Shown here in pieces: positions 2,466 through 25,161 of a stretch of DNA of 25,161 nt. Under the pieces are notes generated by a model. That model had not been told where the DNA came from and did no database searches. It worked only from the letters and a program-made list of their open reading frames with translations. Origin of the DNA: a virus; IMG/VR virus record IMGVR_UViG_3300035438_000119, positions 1-25,161 of that record. The stretch is one strand, 5' to 3'. A program made the translations under genes and the position numbers. How positions within the stretch are numbered: the first letter of the stretch is position 1; every line of letters starts with the position of its first letter.

Positions 2466-5400
2466 ATGCCTGGTAAATTAAAAGTCGGTGGGTCTTGGAG
2501 AGATATCACCTATATTAAACTAAAAGTTGGTTCTATATGGACTAATGTTGGAGAGGCGTATTTAAAGGTAGGCGGTGACTGGAGTAAGTTCTTTGGTGCA
2601 AGTGGACCACAGATAAGTCAAAAACCTGTAATCACGGCAAGCAGCACTACATTCCCAGCAATAGTAACTGGACGAAACTATCATTGGGATTCAGGAAATG
2701 TGTTTACTTATGTATTTCAATATTCATTGACTGCTCCAACATCAACTACAGCGTGGATAGACATAGGAGAGTACCAGTCAATTACAAACCCAGCAGTTGG
2801 ATCTTCAGTAACAAAGACATATGATTTAGCAGATTTAGAAGTTGATGTAGAAGATGATATTTGGGTAAGATTTACGGTGCTAGCCGTTAATACTGTAAAC
2901 TCAACACAGACAATTGAGAGTAGTGATCCTGTGCAAGTATCAAACAATCTTCCAGTTGGAACACCAGTATCTGCGGTAATAGTAAGAGATTCTGAAGATG
3001 GATACGTATACAGCGTATCAAATCCTGGTATATGGACAAAGACTCCTATTCTTTCATATAGATACCAATGGCAACAGAATACCTCTGGAACAACATGGGC
3101 TGATATAACAGGGGCAACATCTATATCAAGAAACATGCTTTCATTCGTTGGTAAAAATGTTAGAGTAAGGGTTTGGGCAACAAACTCATCTGGAGAATCA
3201 TTTAGGCCAATTGTTTCAAATTCAATGATGGTAACTTATGCACCACCAGAGATTAGTTCATTTACAGTAACTCCAAGAGCAGGTGGCGCTACTATTAGTT
3301 ATTCTGCAAGCACAGACGATCCTGACTATAGTATTTCTGTTTTATTAGAAAGACTGAGTGGTGGAACATATTCAGACTATTTCTTTATCCCAATACCTCT
3401 TACATCCCTTACTGCAACAGACATTGAATTTACTACTGATGTTTTGGCATCTGGTACATATCGTTTTACTCTTGTTGTAATAACTAATGATTTGATAGAA
3501 ACTACCTCACAGGTTTCTGGAGTTGTCGTACCAGCACTTTCTGCTTCTTCTTTAACGGTTACAGACACAACACCAACAACAGACTATACTCCATCAGGAC
3601 TTACAGTAACAAACCCATCAAACAATCTTGGTTTAGTTGAATGGACAAATGGAGCAAATGCAGATCTTGCCACATTGGTTTTAAGCGGTGCAGCAACTGG
3701 AACAACAATTTTTGATCCAATAGAATCAAGTAAAACCTTTAGCGTAACAGTAAGTGGAACAGTAACAGCTTCTTTAACCAATACTATAAAAGGTGAAGCA
3801 ACTATAGCATGGAGTCAAAGTGGTGCTAGAAGTTTTAAATTAAAATATGAGGTTGGTGGAAATCCTGTAACATACAATGTTGCAGATACTACATCTACAT
3901 CTCCAAGTCTAAATATAATGTCTAATGGTCTTCAGGTTAAAGCAGTTTCTGTTGAGGTATTCCCTTTGACAAATTATCAAGGTACATCAACACTGTTTAC
4001 TCCATCAGTAGCACCAACTGCAACACCAACAAACAAGGTTAGCACTCCAGCCATTACTGCAAGTGGAACAGTAGAATTCCTTAATCCAAGTGCATCCTCT
4101 TTGGCAATTGCAAACACAACACCAAACGCAACACCTACTGTAACTAGTGTTAGAAACAGTGCAACAACAAATGTTGGAACTGTAGATTGGGAAAATGGAA
4201 CTGGAGCAACTAGTGGCTGGCTAGAAAAGATGACAGCAGCTGGAATTGTAACTGGACAACCAATTGCCGATCCTGGAAGTCTGTCTACTACTGGATCATT
4301 TAATATTTTAATTACTGGAAATGCAACGGCAGTAGTAAAAAATAGATCAAATGCACAAGTCACCATATCTTGGTATCAATCTTCTGTAAAAAGCTATAGG
4401 CTAAGATATACCGTTGCTGGAACTTCTTATACTAGAAATGCAAATACTGTAGATGAAAATGGAGCTGCAATAACTGGAACAACTTCTTTTATTATTCCAA
4501 TTGATGTAAACAATAAAGCAGTTGTTGTTACAGAGCTAGTTGTATATTCTGGATTAAACCAAAATGGAATTCCATCTGCTGCTGTACTACCAGGTTCAGC
4601 ATCTGTTACAGCAACAAACATAACAAATGAAGCAACAGGATCTGGTGCAGTGACTTATGCAGCACCAGCAACAGCTCCAGGAACTCCAACAAACCTACAA
4701 AGAAACCTTGATGGAGCATCAAAAACATTTACTTGGACCGCACCATCTGACGGTGGTTCGCCAATAACAAATTATGAGTTCAATATAAATAACACTGGAT
4801 GGTTTGCTAGAAGTCCAGCATCTTCAGCTACATCTTATTCACTTACAGCAGTAACTGGAAATATTGGAAACACTTTTCAAGTTCGTGCAGTAAATGCAGT
4901 AGGTTCTTCTGCTACCCCAGCTAGTTCTGGAACTTATTATGTTCCATCTGTTGGAGCTCTTACTACATCATCTATTACTAAGACTTCAGCAATAATTACT
5001 TGGACTTCAGGTACAGCTGCACAAGCTGCATGGTCACTATCACTTCCAGGAGCATCAGGTTCACCATTTACTGCAAATAATAGTAATACGTCCTTTGGTG
5101 TTACTGGATTAGTAGCAGGAACATCTTATACACCAACATTAACTCTTACATCTTCAAGTGGTGATACAAACTCTAGAACTGGAACTGAATTTACTACAGT
5201 AGGTCTTTCAGGAATTAAAACGTTGTCAAACCTTACAGTATCTTCTGGAACACTAAGTCCATCATTTCTTTCTGGTACTAATTCATATACTGTTTCTGGA
5301 CTATCTAATGCAACATCATCTATTACTGTTACTCCTACAGTTACAGACTCTACATCTACCGTCACAGTAAATGGAGTTTCAGTAGCTTCTGGGTCAGCAT

Positions 5401-7889
5401 CAGGTGCAATTTCACTCACTGCTGGATCAACAACTAATATTAACATTATAGTTACTGCAGAAAATGGAACCACTAATACTTATACAATTGCAGCTAGCAG
5501 AAATCTTCCAGCACTTAGCATTTCTCTTTCCAATGTTACTAAAACGCTTACTGGATTTACATTTACTTTAACAAGTACGTATGATTCCAACTATACATGG
5601 ACAGCATCTGTTCAATCACCTGCCACCATCTCCCCTTCTTCAGGATCTTCTAGTGGGCAAACCTACACGGTATCTGGAATGACATCTGATGGTGGACCAA
5701 AAATGGCCACAATAACTGCCTCACGTCCTGGATATGATACAGGATCTGATACAAGGACTGGATCTGTTCTAGCACCATCTGTATCTAATTTTACTATTTC
5801 AAATACAACGGCAAACCCAGTTCCTAGTTCAATTACCGTTGGAAATAGTGCAACAGTAAATGTTGGTACAGTAAATTGGGCAAATGGAACTGGTACAGAT
5901 AGATCTTGGGTATCATCTGTGACACCTGGATCATCCTTTACTGGCTCAGAAGGTACACTGAGCCCTACATCACAAAATTTCACCATTACATCTACTCAGT
6001 CAGCAGCAGTTGCAACAGTATTTAATAAAGCATTTGGTACAGCAACAATTTCTTGGAATCAGTCTGATGCACAAAGCTATACATTAATATATACCATTAG
6101 TGGAGTACCTGGACAACAAACAGTTAATGCAAATAGTACAGCATCCAGTGTATCCCGTTCTGTTAATGTAGATGGTTTAGCTGTTACCCTTGTATCAATT
6201 AAGGTTTTTACTGGACCAAATCAAACTGGAAACTTTAATAGTATAACATCAAGTTCATCAGTAACACCAGTTGATAAGATTAACTCAGCAACTGGTTCTG
6301 GATCTATAACACGTGTATCACCTCCAGGTACTCCAACAATAACAATATCAAGTAAAACAACATCTGGATTTAACGTGAGTTGGTCAGCATCTGGTGCAAC
6401 AACATATAATGTTAATGTATATAACGTAAGCACTGGAGTTTCAGTTTCTGGATATCCTTTAACAAATACAACCAATACATCTGCAACCATATCAGGATTG
6501 ACTGCAGACACTAACTATAAGGTTGAGGTTTTTGGAAATAATGCAGCTGGGTCTGGATATAATTTTGCAGATGTGACAACACTTTCAGTAACTCCAACTA
6601 TTAGTGGAATATCTATTAGTAATAATGCTATTTCTCCAGGTTCTTCTACTAGCATATCTGTTTCTAATACCCCACCATCAAATACTGGATCTGTATCATG
6701 GGCAAACGGATCTAATACATCAGCAGCAGGCTTGTTTACAGTATCTGGAGCAGGTTCTGGTGGTTCATCTCCAACAAACCCATCATCACTGTTAACCGCT
6801 GGAACGTTTACGGTAACATCAACTGGAACTGCATCGGTTGGTATACGTGCAATTAATACAAATAAGGGTGCAAATGTTTCATGGACACAATCTGCAGCAC
6901 AAAGCTATTCAATTAATATAACTGCATCAGGGCTTTCCACCTTCAATGTCACTGGAAACTCAAGTGCAAGCAGTCCAAGCATTCCTGTTATATCTAATGA
7001 TTCATTATCTAGAACAGTTACAGTAAATAGTGTTACAGTTTATTCTGGACTAAATCAGACTGGTACACCAGCATCACTTTCTTCTGGATTAAGCATAACA
7101 ACTGCAAATGGTATTACAGATACCCCAGGTTCTGGCTCTGTAACTTATAGTCTTCCATCTCCTGGAACACCAAACTTCCTTACTGCATCCACAGGAAGAA
7201 CAGATGGAGTTGAGCTTTCATTTAGTGGTTCTTCTAATGCAACTAGTTATGATATTTATTGGAATACTACTTCAGCAGTAAAGCCAGCAACAACTGTTAC
7301 TCCAGATTTTCCAGGAGTAACTTCACCATACCTAGATTCTGGAATACCACCTGGAGGAAGTAGACAATATTGGGTTAGAGGAAAAAATTCAACTGGATTT
7401 TCTGCATGGTTCCCAACAGGAACAGGTTCTAGTGGAAGAGTTGGAACAAGAGCTTCAGCTCCTCCTTTCTTCCCTCCTTTCTTCCCTCCTTTCTTCCCAT
7501 TCTTCCCACCGTTCTTCCCATTCTTCCCACCGTTCTTCCCACCGTTCTTCCCACCGTTCTTCCCACCGTTCTTCCCACCGTTCTTTGGTGCTTCAACACC
7601 ACCATTAACACCAACAGGTCTAACAGCACAACTATCTGGATCAAGTACTGTGCTTAACTGGAATGCAGCATCTGGTGCAACAAGCTATGAGCTATGGTAT
7701 CAACCAAGTTCTGCTCAATATTCTGGAACAACTTTTGACTATCCAGCTCCTGGACAACCAGCTATAACAAATACTACATTCTCTGCACCAGTTGGTTACT
7801 CACAGTACTGGACAGTTAGAGCAAGAAATTCAGCAGGTGTAAGTTCATGGTCTACAATGGTACAGTCATCATCAGGTGGTCCAGTATAG
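2466..7889 (+). CDS. Giant multidomain tail protein (Ig/FN3/cadherin-like, PPFF tract)
   Basis: 1807 residues. Approximate order: residues 4-45, three 14-residue repeats of the type LKVGGxW, common at the start of phage minor tail proteins; ~48-262, two Ig-like domains; ~263-355, FN3-like; ~357-518 and ~534-734, two copies of an unnamed module; ~738-913, two FN3 domains; ~914-1012, a cadherin-like beta-sandwich domain (starts LSNLTVSSGTLSPSF); ~1015-1100, a beta domain; ~1103-1287, module copy 3; FN3; ~1377-1566, module copy 4; FN3; 1666-1707, a Pro-Pro-Phe-Phe tract; ~1708-1807, final FN3. It likely forms an elongated, host-facing tail appendage that binds surface glycans or protein. The start is the first ATG after the preceding stop and has no good Shine-Dalgarno, so expression may depend on coupling to the upstream gene. 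Neighbours and domain content support tail origin; the receptor is unknown. Confidence 0.85.
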   Translation: MPGKLKVGGSWRDITYIKLKVGSIWTNVGEAYLKVGGDWSKFFGASGPQISQKPVITASSTTFPAIVTGRNYHWDSGNVFTYVFQYSLTAPTSTTAWIDIGEYQSITNPAVGSSVTKTYDLADLEVDVEDDIWVRFTVLAVNTVNSTQTIESSDPVQVSNNLPVGTPVSAVIVRDSEDGYVYSVSNPGIWTKTPILSYRYQWQQNTSGTTWADITGATSISRNMLSFVGKNVRVRVWATNSSGESFRPIVSNSMMVTYAPPEISSFTVTPRAGGATISYSASTDDPDYSISVLLERLSGGTYSDYFFIPIPLTSLTATDIEFTTDVLASGTYRFTLVVITNDLIETTSQVSGVVVPALSASSLTVTDTTPTTDYTPSGLTVTNPSNNLGLVEWTNGANADLATLVLSGAATGTTIFDPIESSKTFSVTVSGTVTASLTNTIKGEATIAWSQSGARSFKLKYEVGGNPVTYNVADTTSTSPSLNIMSNGLQVKAVSVEVFPLTNYQGTSTLFTPSVAPTATPTNKVSTPAITASGTVEFLNPSASSLAIANTTPNATPTVTSVRNSATTNVGTVDWENGTGATSGWLEKMTAAGIVTGQPIADPGSLSTTGSFNILITGNATAVVKNRSNAQVTISWYQSSVKSYRLRYTVAGTSYTRNANTVDENGAAITGTTSFIIPIDVNNKAVVVTELVVYSGLNQNGIPSAAVLPGSASVTATNITNEATGSGAVTYAAPATAPGTPTNLQRNLDGASKTFTWTAPSDGGSPITNYEFNINNTGWFARSPASSATSYSLTAVTGNIGNTFQVRAVNAVGSSATPASSGTYYVPSVGALTTSSITKTSAIITWTSGTAAQAAWSLSLPGASGSPFTANNSNTSFGVTGLVAGTSYTPTLTLTSSSGDTNSRTGTEFTTVGLSGIKTLSNLTVSSGTLSPSFLSGTNSYTVSGLSNATSSITVTPTVTDSTSTVTVNGVSVASGSASGAISLTAGSTTNINIIVTAENGTTNTYTIAASRNLPALSISLSNVTKTLTGFTFTLTSTYDSNYTWTASVQSPATISPSSGSSSGQTYTVSGMTSDGGPKMATITASRPGYDTGSDTRTGSVLAPSVSNFTISNTTANPVPSSITVGNSATVNVGTVNWANGTGTDRSWVSSVTPGSSFTGSEGTLSPTSQNFTITSTQSAAVATVFNKAFGTATISWNQSDAQSYTLIYTISGVPGQQTVNANSTASSVSRSVNVDGLAVTLVSIKVFTGPNQTGNFNSITSSSSVTPVDKINSATGSGSITRVSPPGTPTITISSKTTSGFNVSWSASGATTYNVNVYNVSTGVSVSGYPLTNTTNTSATISGLTADTNYKVEVFGNNAAGSGYNFADVTTLSVTPTISGISISNNAISPGSSTSISVSNTPPSNTGSVSWANGSNTSAAGLFTVSGAGSGGSSPTNPSSLLTAGTFTVTSTGTASVGIRAINTNKGANVSWTQSAAQSYSINITASGLSTFNVTGNSSASSPSIPVISNDSLSRTVTVNSVTVYSGLNQTGTPASLSSGLSITTANGITDTPGSGSVTYSLPSPGTPNFLTASTGRTDGVELSFSGSSNATSYDIYWNTTSAVKPATTVTPDFPGVTSPYLDSGIPPGGSRQYWVRGKNSTGFSAWFPTGTGSSGRVGTRASAPPFFPPFFPPFFPFFPPFFPFFPPFFPPFFPPFFPPFFPPFFGASTPPLTPTGLTAQLSGSSTVLNWNAASGATSYELWYQPSSAQYSGTTFDYPAPGQPAITNTTFSAPVGYSQYWTVRARNSAGVSSWSTMVQSSSGGPV
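7461..7586 (+). repeat. 12-bp/9-bp coding tandem repeat (Pro-Pro-Phe-Phe units)
   Basis: Eleven tandem units lie in frame within the giant tail gene: three CCTCCTTTCTTC units, then alternating 9-bp CCATTCTTC and 12-bp CCACCGTTCTTC units, ending in five of the latter type (the final one has TTT for the last codon). Translated, they give nine PPFF and two PFF units, residues 1666-1707, joining two FN3 domains. Codon choice differs between the 5' and 3' blocks (CCT-CCT-TTC versus CCA-CCG-TTC), suggesting two separate expansions. Confidence 0.95.
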
Positions 7890-22422: not shown

Positions 22423-23949
22423 ATGAATTCATTCAAGAAAATCTCAATTGCTACTGCTGCAGCTTTAGCAATCGTTGGTCTTTCTGTAGCACCTTCTTCG
22501 GCAGCACCGCTGACCGTTTCAGTTGCATCAGTAACTAACGCTACAACAGCAGCACTTCCAGCAACCGTTGCAGTACCATCAAATAATCAAATTTTGGCTG
22601 GTACATCAGTTGCAATTGCAGCAACAGCAGATACAGGAACAAGTGTTTCTTTTGCTGCTTCATCAACAGTTAAGTTGGTAACAGCACTGCACACAGTAGA
22701 TGCACCAAAGACAGTTGCATCAGGAGTTTCATCTCTATCACTTACATCTGCAGGAGCAGCAATCACTGTTTATGCATACACAACAACAACAGCAGTTGGA
22801 TCAGTAACCGTAACAAACGGATCATATTCAACAATTGTTTACATTGCAGGTACTCCAGGATCTGCATATAATCTAGGACTTTCAGTTCCATCTGCAACAG
22901 CAGTAGGAACAGTTCCAACAATTGCTCTTACAACAACAGATGTATTTGGTAACGCAGTATCAGATACAGCAACAGTAACCTTGATTGGTTCAACTTTTGC
23001 TAATGGATCAGTTTCAACAATATTGACAACTGCTGCAGCAACAAATGCTTCAACAGGTGCAGTTCTTGGAACAGTAACAGCAGCACTTGCAACAGCAGTT
23101 GCTGGAGATATTACAGTAGTTGCAACAGGTCTTGCAGCAGTAACACCAGTAACTGGTCTTGCTACTCCAACAAAGTCTGTAATTGCTAAGTTCACAGTAT
23201 CTGATCTTGCTGGTATTATTACAGCACTAAAGTCTGATCTTGCTTCAGAAAAGTCTGCCCATGATGCAACTAAGGCTGCTTCAACAGCAGCAGCAAAGGC
23301 TGCAGCAGATCTTTTGGCAACAGAAAAGGCTACACATGATGCTACAAAGGCAGCACTAACAGCAGAGTCAAAAGCTAAGTCAGAGCTTGCAGTAGCACTT
23401 TCCAAGGCAAATGCAGAGATTGCAACAGCACTTGCAGACTTGTCAGATGCTAAGAAGGCTAAGGCAGATGCGGATAAGGCTATTGCGGATGCTAAGACAT
23501 CTACAGATAAGATTATTGCAGATCTAAAGTTGCTTCTTGATAAGTCAAATGCAGATCTTGCATCAGCTAAGAAGGCTCTTGATGACCTAAAGGCTTCTTC
23601 AGATAAAGCACTTGCAGATGCAAACTCAGCCCATTCAAAGGCTATTGCTGATGCTAAGGCTTCTTCAGAAAAGTTGCTTGCTGACCTAAAGGCTTCTTCA
23701 GATAAAGCACTTGCTGATTTGAAGACATCTTCAGATAAGGCTCTTGCTGATGCTCAGGCATCACATGCAAAGGCTATTGCTGATGAGGTTACTGCACATG
23801 CAGTAACAAAGGCAGCACTTGCTAAGGCACAGTCAGATGCAGCAGCTAAGGCTGCAGCAGATGCTAGAGCAAAGGCAGCACTAAATGCAAAGATTAAGGC
23901 AGCAAACAAGAAGCTTCCTAAGTCATTGCAGATTCCTTTGGTTAAGTAA
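22423..23949 (+). CDS. Secreted surface-type protein with 11-residue-repeat coiled coil
   Basis: 508 residues. Classical Sec signal peptide: MNSFKK, hydrophobic ISIATAAALAIVGLSV, and cleavage at about residue 27-28 (SSA-AP). Residues ~30-265 are a threonine/alanine/valine-rich beta region resembling bacterial S-layer or adhesin Ig-like domains (for example TTDVFGNAVSDTATVTLIGS). Residues ~266-470 form a coiled coil built largely of 11-residue units such as LKASSDKALAD, AKTSTDKIIAD and AQASHAKAIAD. The end is basic: AKIKAANKKLPKSLQIPLVK. It should be exported and sit on or outside the host cell, or be carried by virions after export. AAGGAG precedes ATG, and a strong terminator follows. No LPXTG or membrane anchor is seen. 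Codon use (GCA/GCT/ACA) is skewed by composition. A host origin is plausible. Confidence 0.85.
   Translation: MNSFKKISIATAAALAIVGLSVAPSSAAPLTVSVASVTNATTAALPATVAVPSNNQILAGTSVAIAATADTGTSVSFAASSTVKLVTALHTVDAPKTVASGVSSLSLTSAGAAITVYAYTTTTAVGSVTVTNGSYSTIVYIAGTPGSAYNLGLSVPSATAVGTVPTIALTTTDVFGNAVSDTATVTLIGSTFANGSVSTILTTAAATNASTGAVLGTVTAALATAVAGDITVVATGLAAVTPVTGLATPTKSVIAKFTVSDLAGIITALKSDLASEKSAHDATKAASTAAAKAAADLLATEKATHDATKAALTAESKAKSELAVALSKANAEIATALADLSDAKKAKADADKAIADAKTSTDKIIADLKLLLDKSNADLASAKKALDDLKASSDKALADANSAHSKAIADAKASSEKLLADLKASSDKALADLKTSSDKALADAQASHAKAIADEVTAHAVTKAALAKAQSDAAAKAAADARAKAALNAKIKAANKKLPKSLQIPLVK
23584..23714 (+). repeat. 32-bp direct repeat within hendecad coiled-coil region
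   Basis: Two identical 32-bp copies (23584-23615 and 23683-23714) start 99 bp apart, exactly 33 codons or three 11-residue units. They encode the same LKASSDKALA stretch, indicating recent in-frame duplication or recombination among repeat units of the secreted protein gene. Confidence 0.9.
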
Positions 23950-24064: not shown

Positions 24065-25161
24065 AAGAAATTAATAAGAACAGGTATTGTTCTATCTTTA
24101 ATTTTAGTACCACTATTTTTATCCACAGATAAAGCTCATGCAGCAGAAGGTTTGACTGCTCAAGTCTATAATGTGCAGGGTCAAAATGCTTCCCCATATA
24201 TCCCACAGGGTTCCTCTCCAGTACTAACTACAAACGTACCCAACATTGACCACCAATGGGGTTCTGGTAGCGTCTTAGGTGGCCCAGCAGAGGACGTTAT
24301 TGTACGTTTTACGGGCTCAATCAGAAGTGACTCTACTCAAAATATATCCTTTATGGCTACAGGAGATGACGGTACCAGGCTCTACATTGATGGAGCATTA
24401 ATAACAGATGATTGGGTTGACAAGGGTGGTGGAGGATCAACCTCTGCTCCAGTATCTTTTACAGCAGGAGTTCCAAAAACCATAGAATTAATGTACTATG
24501 AAAATGGTGGGGGAGCAAATGTATTCCTATATTGGGATCAATCTGGATCTATGGGAATTGTCCCAGCATCAGCCTTTACTTCACAAGCAGCCCCAGTAGT
24601 AAGAACAATAGGTGCTCCAAGAAATCTTACAGTAACAGATGGGGAAACTTCAACATTATTAATTTGGGAAGCCCCTAATACTGGTAATACTCAACCAGAA
24701 AGATATGCAATAGGTCTTAACACTGAAGGGCAAAATGGTTGGGGTATTGCAACTGGAAATGTTGGAGATGCTAACGCATTAAACACAACAATAACAATTA
24801 ATCATTCTTTACTTGAAAGCCTAATGCCAAGCGGAACTGTATGGTCATTTCATATTAGATCAGACAATGACACGTTAGGAGTTTACTCTGAAAATTCAAA
24901 TGTTGTTACACTTAAAATTGGAAAAACTGCAGAGGAAATTGCAGCAGAACAGGCAGCAGCACAGGCTGCTATTGATGCAGAGAATGCAAGATTAGCAGCC
25001 ATCGCTGCAGAAGAAGCAAGACTAGCAGAGATTGCACGATTAGAAGAAGTTGCTAGGCTGGCTGAAATAGCAAGACTTGCAGAGGTTGCTAGACTAGCAG
25101 AAGTCGCTAGACTTGAAGCAGAAGCAGCAGCATTACTGGCAGCTCAACAAGAAGCAGCACG
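24062..25161 (+). CDS. Secreted PA14-FN3-coiled-coil protein, ATT start, 3' partial
   Basis: Open from 24029 to the right edge; 366 full codons from ATT at 24062. Signal peptide: KKLIR, hydrophobic GIVLSLILVPLFL, cleavage after AHA (residue ~27). Residues ~31-173 form a PA14 domain (LTAQVYNVQG; FMATGDDGTRLYIDGALITD; KTIELMYYENGGGANVFLYW), a beta-barrel fold that usually binds sugars. Residues ~184-284 are an FN3 domain (GAPRNLTVTDG; YSENSNVVTL). From ~286 on it is an alanine-rich helix with six-residue units such as ARLAEI and ARLAEV. It has its own promoter and terminator-insulated position. Likely an exported glycan-binding surface protein or an adhesin-like virion part that needs export. 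A non-standard ATT start is inferred; an ATG changed by one base (mutation or sequencing error) is the alternative. Confidence 0.82.
   Translation, partial: MKKLIRTGIVLSLILVPLFLSTDKAHAAEGLTAQVYNVQGQNASPYIPQGSSPVLTTNVPNIDHQWGSGSVLGGPAEDVIVRFTGSIRSDSTQNISFMATGDDGTRLYIDGALITDDWVDKGGGGSTSAPVSFTAGVPKTIELMYYENGGGANVFLYWDQSGSMGIVPASAFTSQAAPVVRTIGAPRNLTVTDGETSTLLIWEAPNTGNTQPERYAIGLNTEGQNGWGIATGNVGDANALNTTITINHSLLESLMPSGTVWSFHIRSDNDTLGVYSENSNVVTLKIGKTAEEIAAEQAAAQAAIDAENARLAAIAAEEARLAEIARLEEVARLAEIARLAEVARLAEVARLEAEAAALLAAQQEAA

Follow-up and report, generated by a model that had tools for sequence, protein, structure and literature searches.

Phage virion proteins commonly contain Ig-like and fibronectin type III (FN3) domains, the latter forming one of the Ig-like superfamilies known from them (PMC9022992), and receptor-binding proteins are known to exchange fragments, as a general process, between tail fibres that otherwise differ (PMC10684548). 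The window studied here, 25,161 nucleotides of viral DNA (IMG/VR record IMGVR_UViG_3300035438_000119), encodes a tail-fibre-like protein with four diverged copies of one module. We propose, with a probability of roughly 0.7, that each module is an FN3 domain (D2) that carries a second, FN3-like domain (D1, ~75–80 residues) between its strands A and B. None of the domain databases searched (Pfam, PHROGs and NCBIfam) has a name for this nested arrangement, and a search of the open-access literature yielded nothing relevant on FN3 domains interrupted by another domain or by an AB-loop insert. Below, each module is described as four consecutive segments, x, D1, D2 and y (Table 1).

The window corresponds to the last 25,161 bases of a longer contig, IMGVR_UViG_3300035682_000045 (56,321 bases); the 15,169 bases compared match at 100% identity, and both coordinate ranges stop at the same point. 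Judged from length, order and visible sequence, the upstream ORFs of the longer contig resemble a capsid protein, a tail tube protein and a 1,779-residue tape measure, followed by a distal tail protein, a 1,377-residue tip protein and a further tail protein, and the fibre ORF closes the series of tail genes. The large terminase has 53% identity to its counterparts in Streptomyces phages, which makes an actinobacterial host likely. Three xLKVGGSWRxI-type repeats open the module-bearing fibre ORFs, both here (within 2466–2600) and in sister fibres, and are perhaps a tail-attachment segment. Pfam fn3 recognizes four stretches in the 1,807-residue protein, the best of which (1286–1366) lies outside the modules. 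Elsewhere in the window, directly after the large terminase gene, 22423–23949 encodes an Ala/Ser-rich protein with a signal peptide and a long C-terminal part that resembles a coiled coil; this protein has the look of a secreted host protein that the phage carries; at 24152–25159, an ORF cut by the window end combines a PA14 domain, a weak FN3 match and a charged Ala/Glu-rich tail, and is possibly another adhesin.

Table 1. Features of the fibre protein, with window coordinates and residue numbers, and FN3 domains of related fibres used for comparison
Feature	Window position	Strand	Residues	Segments or basis
Tail-fibre-like protein carrying the four modules	2466–7889	+	1–1807	ORF reading; 1807 aa
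Module M1	3534–4082	+	357–544	x 3534–3566, D1 3567–3791, D2 3792–4034, y 4035–4082
Module M2, abuts M1	4086–4661	+	541–740	x 4086–4115, D1 4116–4352, D2 4353–4619, y 4620–4661
FN3 domain, ordinary, after M2	4671–4943	+	736–826	Pfam fn3; boundaries by eye
Cadherin-like beta sandwich (PF12733)	5223–5501	+	920–1012	E 3.6e-14
Module M3, copy modelled	5772–6317	+	1103–1289	x 5772–5804, D1 5805–6035, D2 6036–6275, y 6276–6317
FN3 domain, ordinary, between M3 and M4	6315–6587	+	1284–1374	Pfam fn3 1286–1366
Exchanged DNA block, 93.4% identical to L006 (IMGVR_UViG_3300042556_001053) module	6576–7149	+		DNA comparison
Module M4	6591–7151	+	1376–1568	x 6591–6623, D1 6624–6863, D2 6864–7109, y 7110–7151
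FN3 domain after M4	7158–7436	+	1565–1657	
Uninterrupted FN3s near the C-terminus of related fibres			L006 1481–1562, L007 1033–1117, L073 300–384, L096 204–286	

The four copies, diverged and ~190 residues each, exist as originally predicted: their pairwise Smith–Waterman scores lie 11–25 s.d. above composition-preserving shuffles, and a four-copy profile has just four strong matches in the fibre protein (218–253 bits), with nothing else above 5 bits. All of the motifs quoted in the original prediction are present (GLVEWTNG, GTVDWENG, GTVNWANG and GSVSWANG, ISWxQS, and the VYSGLNQxG-like strings), and W, N and G of the WxNG motif, like W, Q and S of ISWxQS, are among the positions that never vary. 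The first copy, previously placed to end near residue 518, instead runs to ~544, with no linker between copies 1 and 2.

For all module members, searches of Pfam, PHROGs and NCBIfam gave no convincing family match; stray matches to SurE, MIB_HERC2 and DUF5047 (E 1e-3 to 1e-2) involved one to four members each and were mutually unrelated. Pfam and NCBIfam returned no CBM family for the module, Pfam no Big family, and none of 13 modules reached the curated PF00041 fn3 cut-off (25 bits), the best being E 8.5 for one member. A profile search of the PDB gave nothing at the 0.01 level, antibody light chains appearing at E 0.06 and worse. The earlier statement that the module could not be matched to a known domain holds for the curated libraries, but both of its parts are FN3-like when profiles are compared with shuffles and structures with one another.

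Relatives are confined to uncultured viruses in our searches. Four viral-contig scans found module-bearing tail-fibre ORFs in 23 other IMG/VR contigs, some of them near-duplicates, with one or two copies per fibre, making the four copies described here the maximum; those ORFs with the N-terminus present start with similar xxVKxxGxW repeats. No match was obtained by tblastn of the whole fibre, a sister fibre and one module against 50,697 phage records, and no module emerged from 84,980 species genomes, which were scanned twice, with one narrow peptide pattern per scan and hence as a weak negative. Far more divergent probable modules, at ~20 bits with the family profile, occur in L062 (ORF residues 364–511), L064 (300–494) and L163 (219–364); the family extends beyond the reach of the contig scans, as these divergent members surfaced only through a scan for a second element, an (FFPP)n tract.

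This tract, with a 12-bp period, lies at 7467–7585 of the window (residues 1668–1707), and also occurs in L006, L007, L046, L047 and L056–L135 onwards. An exact-pattern scan of viral contigs found at least 120 stretches, and all 120 listed encode FFPP in frame. Many of them lie at the C-terminal end of fibre-like ORFs or close to it; the codons vary, and Y, H or W occasionally stands in for F. The string ‘FFPPFFPP’ was not found in the open-access literature searched, and the tract is possibly a widespread, undescribed aromatic–proline fibre element. Two further elements accompany the module in related fibres: YTVTWNANGGNGGGSTTQ...SGFTFNGYY-type repeats, which follow it in L005, L009, L010 and L050 and resemble InlB/Listeria–Bacteroides beta-grasp repeats, and a ~150-residue domain starting YTFxxGNRISVSTNGYISLG, common to L006, L007 and L047, which stands ahead of the FFPP tract and has the module as a neighbour in several fibres.

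The structural case for nesting comes from an AlphaFold2 model of M3, built from a 13-sequence alignment (pLDDT 91.1, pTM 0.78), which contains 13 strands in two beta-sandwich parts (module residues 3–11, 19–25, 31–37, 44–51, 67–71, 78–87, 90–98, 102–109, 116–121, 126–132, 138–146, 155–159 and 169–178). In a VIA-align comparison of this model, the best 50 rows are all FN3 domains (Z 9.0–10.0, rmsd 2.2–3.1 Å), with 83–94 residues aligned over a model span of 1–2 to 165–173 to targets of ~100 residues. Only strand 1–11 joined to ~90–169 fits these values, which means that ~77 residues are skipped. D2 with x superposes on a solved FN3 domain as a seven-strand sandwich (Z 10.0, rmsd 2.5, 88 residues aligned); its strands A and B are ~77 residues apart in sequence rather than contiguous, as strands A–G otherwise are in FN3. 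D1 superposes less completely: modelled alone, its pLDDT falls to 70, and its match to FN3 covers strands A to F, with G missing, at Z up to 6.1, a weak structural match that could reflect a common arrangement. The structural comparison therefore marks D2 strongly as FN3 and D1 weakly, and we base the nesting on the aligned residue ranges of the model together with sequence tests.

A Foldseek search with the M3 model gave no PDB match at E ≤ 0.001 (best 0.002) and whole-module TM values of ~0.2–0.3; a Big_2–CBM56 structure was weakly among the matches, and the best PDB matches were tandem FN3 pairs. The last result agrees with the simplest reading, in which the module would be two consecutive, very divergent but complete FN3 or Ig-like domains (~1–88 and ~89–180) with no nesting; the N half also looks Big_2-like by eye, and y, again by eye, looks like the G strand of uninterrupted FN3s. 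A separate second domain, however, cannot yield the residue ranges seen in all 50 VIA-align rows, and the profile and joining tests that follow also speak against this reading, which we consider unlikely.

For sequence tests independent of the model, we used hhalign with a reference profile built from 20 FN3 domains of these fibre proteins; the alignments are shallow (13–21 rows) and Ser/Thr-rich. D1 scored 25.1 over FN3 columns 2–75 (strands A–F), compared with 7.6 ± 1.8 (maximum 14.7) for 100 column shuffles and 9.2 for a reversed control. D2 scored 30.1 over columns 20–95 (B–G), compared with 8.3 ± 1.6 (maximum 13.8) for shuffles and 14.5 for the reversed control. Scores of 22.2 (D1) and 28.4 (D2) remained when the two most D2-like FN3s were removed from the profile, and the Ig-like profile of the same proteins, which has two rows only, gave 10.4 and 13.0. 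Because D1 aligns with A–F and D2 with B–G, the centre of the module holds neither a G strand for D1 nor an A strand for D2, contrary to the expectation for two complete domains in tandem, and in the hhalign alignments x does not serve as the A strand of D1.

Ordinary FN3s that resemble D2 occur in sister fibres, for example L007 1033–1117 (PTISSVTASNIIRTGAVITWTSTGQASYLI...VTVYSGSNQTG). When D1 was excised in silico and x joined to D2, the summed match to four uninterrupted FN3s (from L006, L007, L073 and L096, which are mutually similar and so not four independent tests) rose from 144.4 to 173.9 bits (+29.5), whereas the best of 72 control joins with other 12-residue segments reached 154.3 bits (+9.9). 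This specific gain, which speaks against a plain tandem, points to x as strand A of D2 and to D1 in the A–B loop. That D1 and D2 are FN3-like, and that x belongs to D2, is well supported by these alignments and the model, and on this reading the two signatures of the module are the B strands of D1 and D2. A genuinely new fold unrelated to FN3 would suit the lack of a convincing Pfam, PHROGs or NCBIfam family and of a PDB sequence match at the 0.01 level, but is very improbable given the FN3 structural match at Z 10 and profile scores for both parts far above shuffles; the same two results rule out the module as one large new fold.

The role of y is less clear-cut. Considered as strand A of D2, it gave no alignment; added to D1, it neither extended the FN3 alignment nor gained or lost score. 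In the FN3 topology, the A–B loop and the end of strand G share one pole. If D1 were stacked at this pole, the chain could pass from strand A of D2 to strand A of D1, from strand F of D1 to strand B of D2, and from strand G of D2 to y in short collinear steps (~7, 2 and 5–9 residues), making an in-line double-decker with three crossings, and y as strand G of D1, plausible. We infer that y supplies this missing strand. The chain order would then be x (D2 strand A), D1 strands A–F, D2 strands B–G and finally y, and the two domains would interlock, with strand A of D2 contributed from upstream of D1 and strand G of D1 from downstream of D2. We hold this mutual interlock only tentatively, at somewhat less than even odds. 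In such a double-decker rod, the decks would be joined by three chain crossings rather than one, owing to which neighbouring domains would be unable to hinge or swivel.

Alternatively, D1 could protrude laterally from an FN3 stalk as a head that binds receptors or glycans, with y belonging to D2 and the chain exit adjoining the entry to D1. Loop insertion is a common means of domain display, adding y does not extend the FN3 alignment of D1, and the lowest-confidence, variable loop of the M3 model (residues 52–66) lies in D1. On the other hand, the poor prediction of D1 alone is expected if D1 needs y, the conserved W, N and G of WxNG fall in or just after strand B, where the tryptophan is probably part of the core, and no carbohydrate-binding family in Pfam, PHROGs or NCBIfam matches. 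We judge a protruding head to be rather unlikely. With D1 nested in line instead, the modules could serve as stiff, interchangeable units of length and spacing in the distal tail fibre of a siphophage-like actinobacteriophage, their loops free to diverge; phages may gain or swap the module as a single cassette, so that fibre length and surface vary. In short, the module would probably be a stiff, exchangeable fibre segment.

Comparison among fibres bears on this exchange. In a tree of 28 modules, which has long branches and weak deep support, the four copies of the window do not form one clade, four changes being needed; plain tandem duplication therefore does not account for all of them. M4 and a module of L006 share 574 bases of closely similar DNA, with flanks that have no detectable DNA similarity, in fibres that are otherwise different. 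The shared block runs from x to y, exactly one module without the neighbouring FN3, and is a recently exchanged cassette that matches the proposed structural unit. Shuffling of the module, as originally predicted, is borne out by this exchange. It is also literally true, by Pfam fn3, that three of the four copies here are followed by PGTP and an FN3 domain, but the suggestion that module and FN3 multiplied partly as a unit is not upheld: sister fibres have quite different domains after the module, the recent exchange involved the module alone, and the four copies form no single clade.

More broadly, these results provide a structural hypothesis that can be tested for what had been an ‘unknown domain’ in the tail fibres of uncultured phages: FN3 carrying an FN3-like insert, the whole traded between phages as a cassette. 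Annotation pipelines now miss the module, which has no family match, and a module profile would name part of many tail fibres. The interlock, if true, would stiffen a rod of normally flexible Ig-like beads in a manner so far undescribed, with up to four repeats per fibre, and would be of interest for fibre mechanics and protein design.

One of the closest described systems is the PF00041 FN3 domain of phage tail proteins, with which the module shares the fold of D2 (Z 10), the profile similarity of D1 and D2, and a tail-fibre location. In contrast to PF00041, the module falls below the Pfam fn3 cut-off, a ~77-residue second sandwich parts strand A from strands B–G, and an extra last strand, y, is present. 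The uninterrupted FN3s of related fibres have the same A strand, B–G pattern and VYSGxNQTG-like F–G region as the module, but neither the D1 insert nor the extra y, and look like its pre-insertion form. The tail tube protein of phage YSD1 (PMC9022992) offers a parallel in that an Ig-like beta-sandwich interrupts a phage tail domain between two of its strands; there, however, the recipient is the tail-tube core fold rather than FN3, and a single insertion in one class of structural protein is involved. Finally, like the shuffled fragments of receptor-binding proteins (PMC10684548), the module has been exchanged recently between otherwise different fibres, whereas the unit exchanged here is exactly one nested module, named by no library searched.
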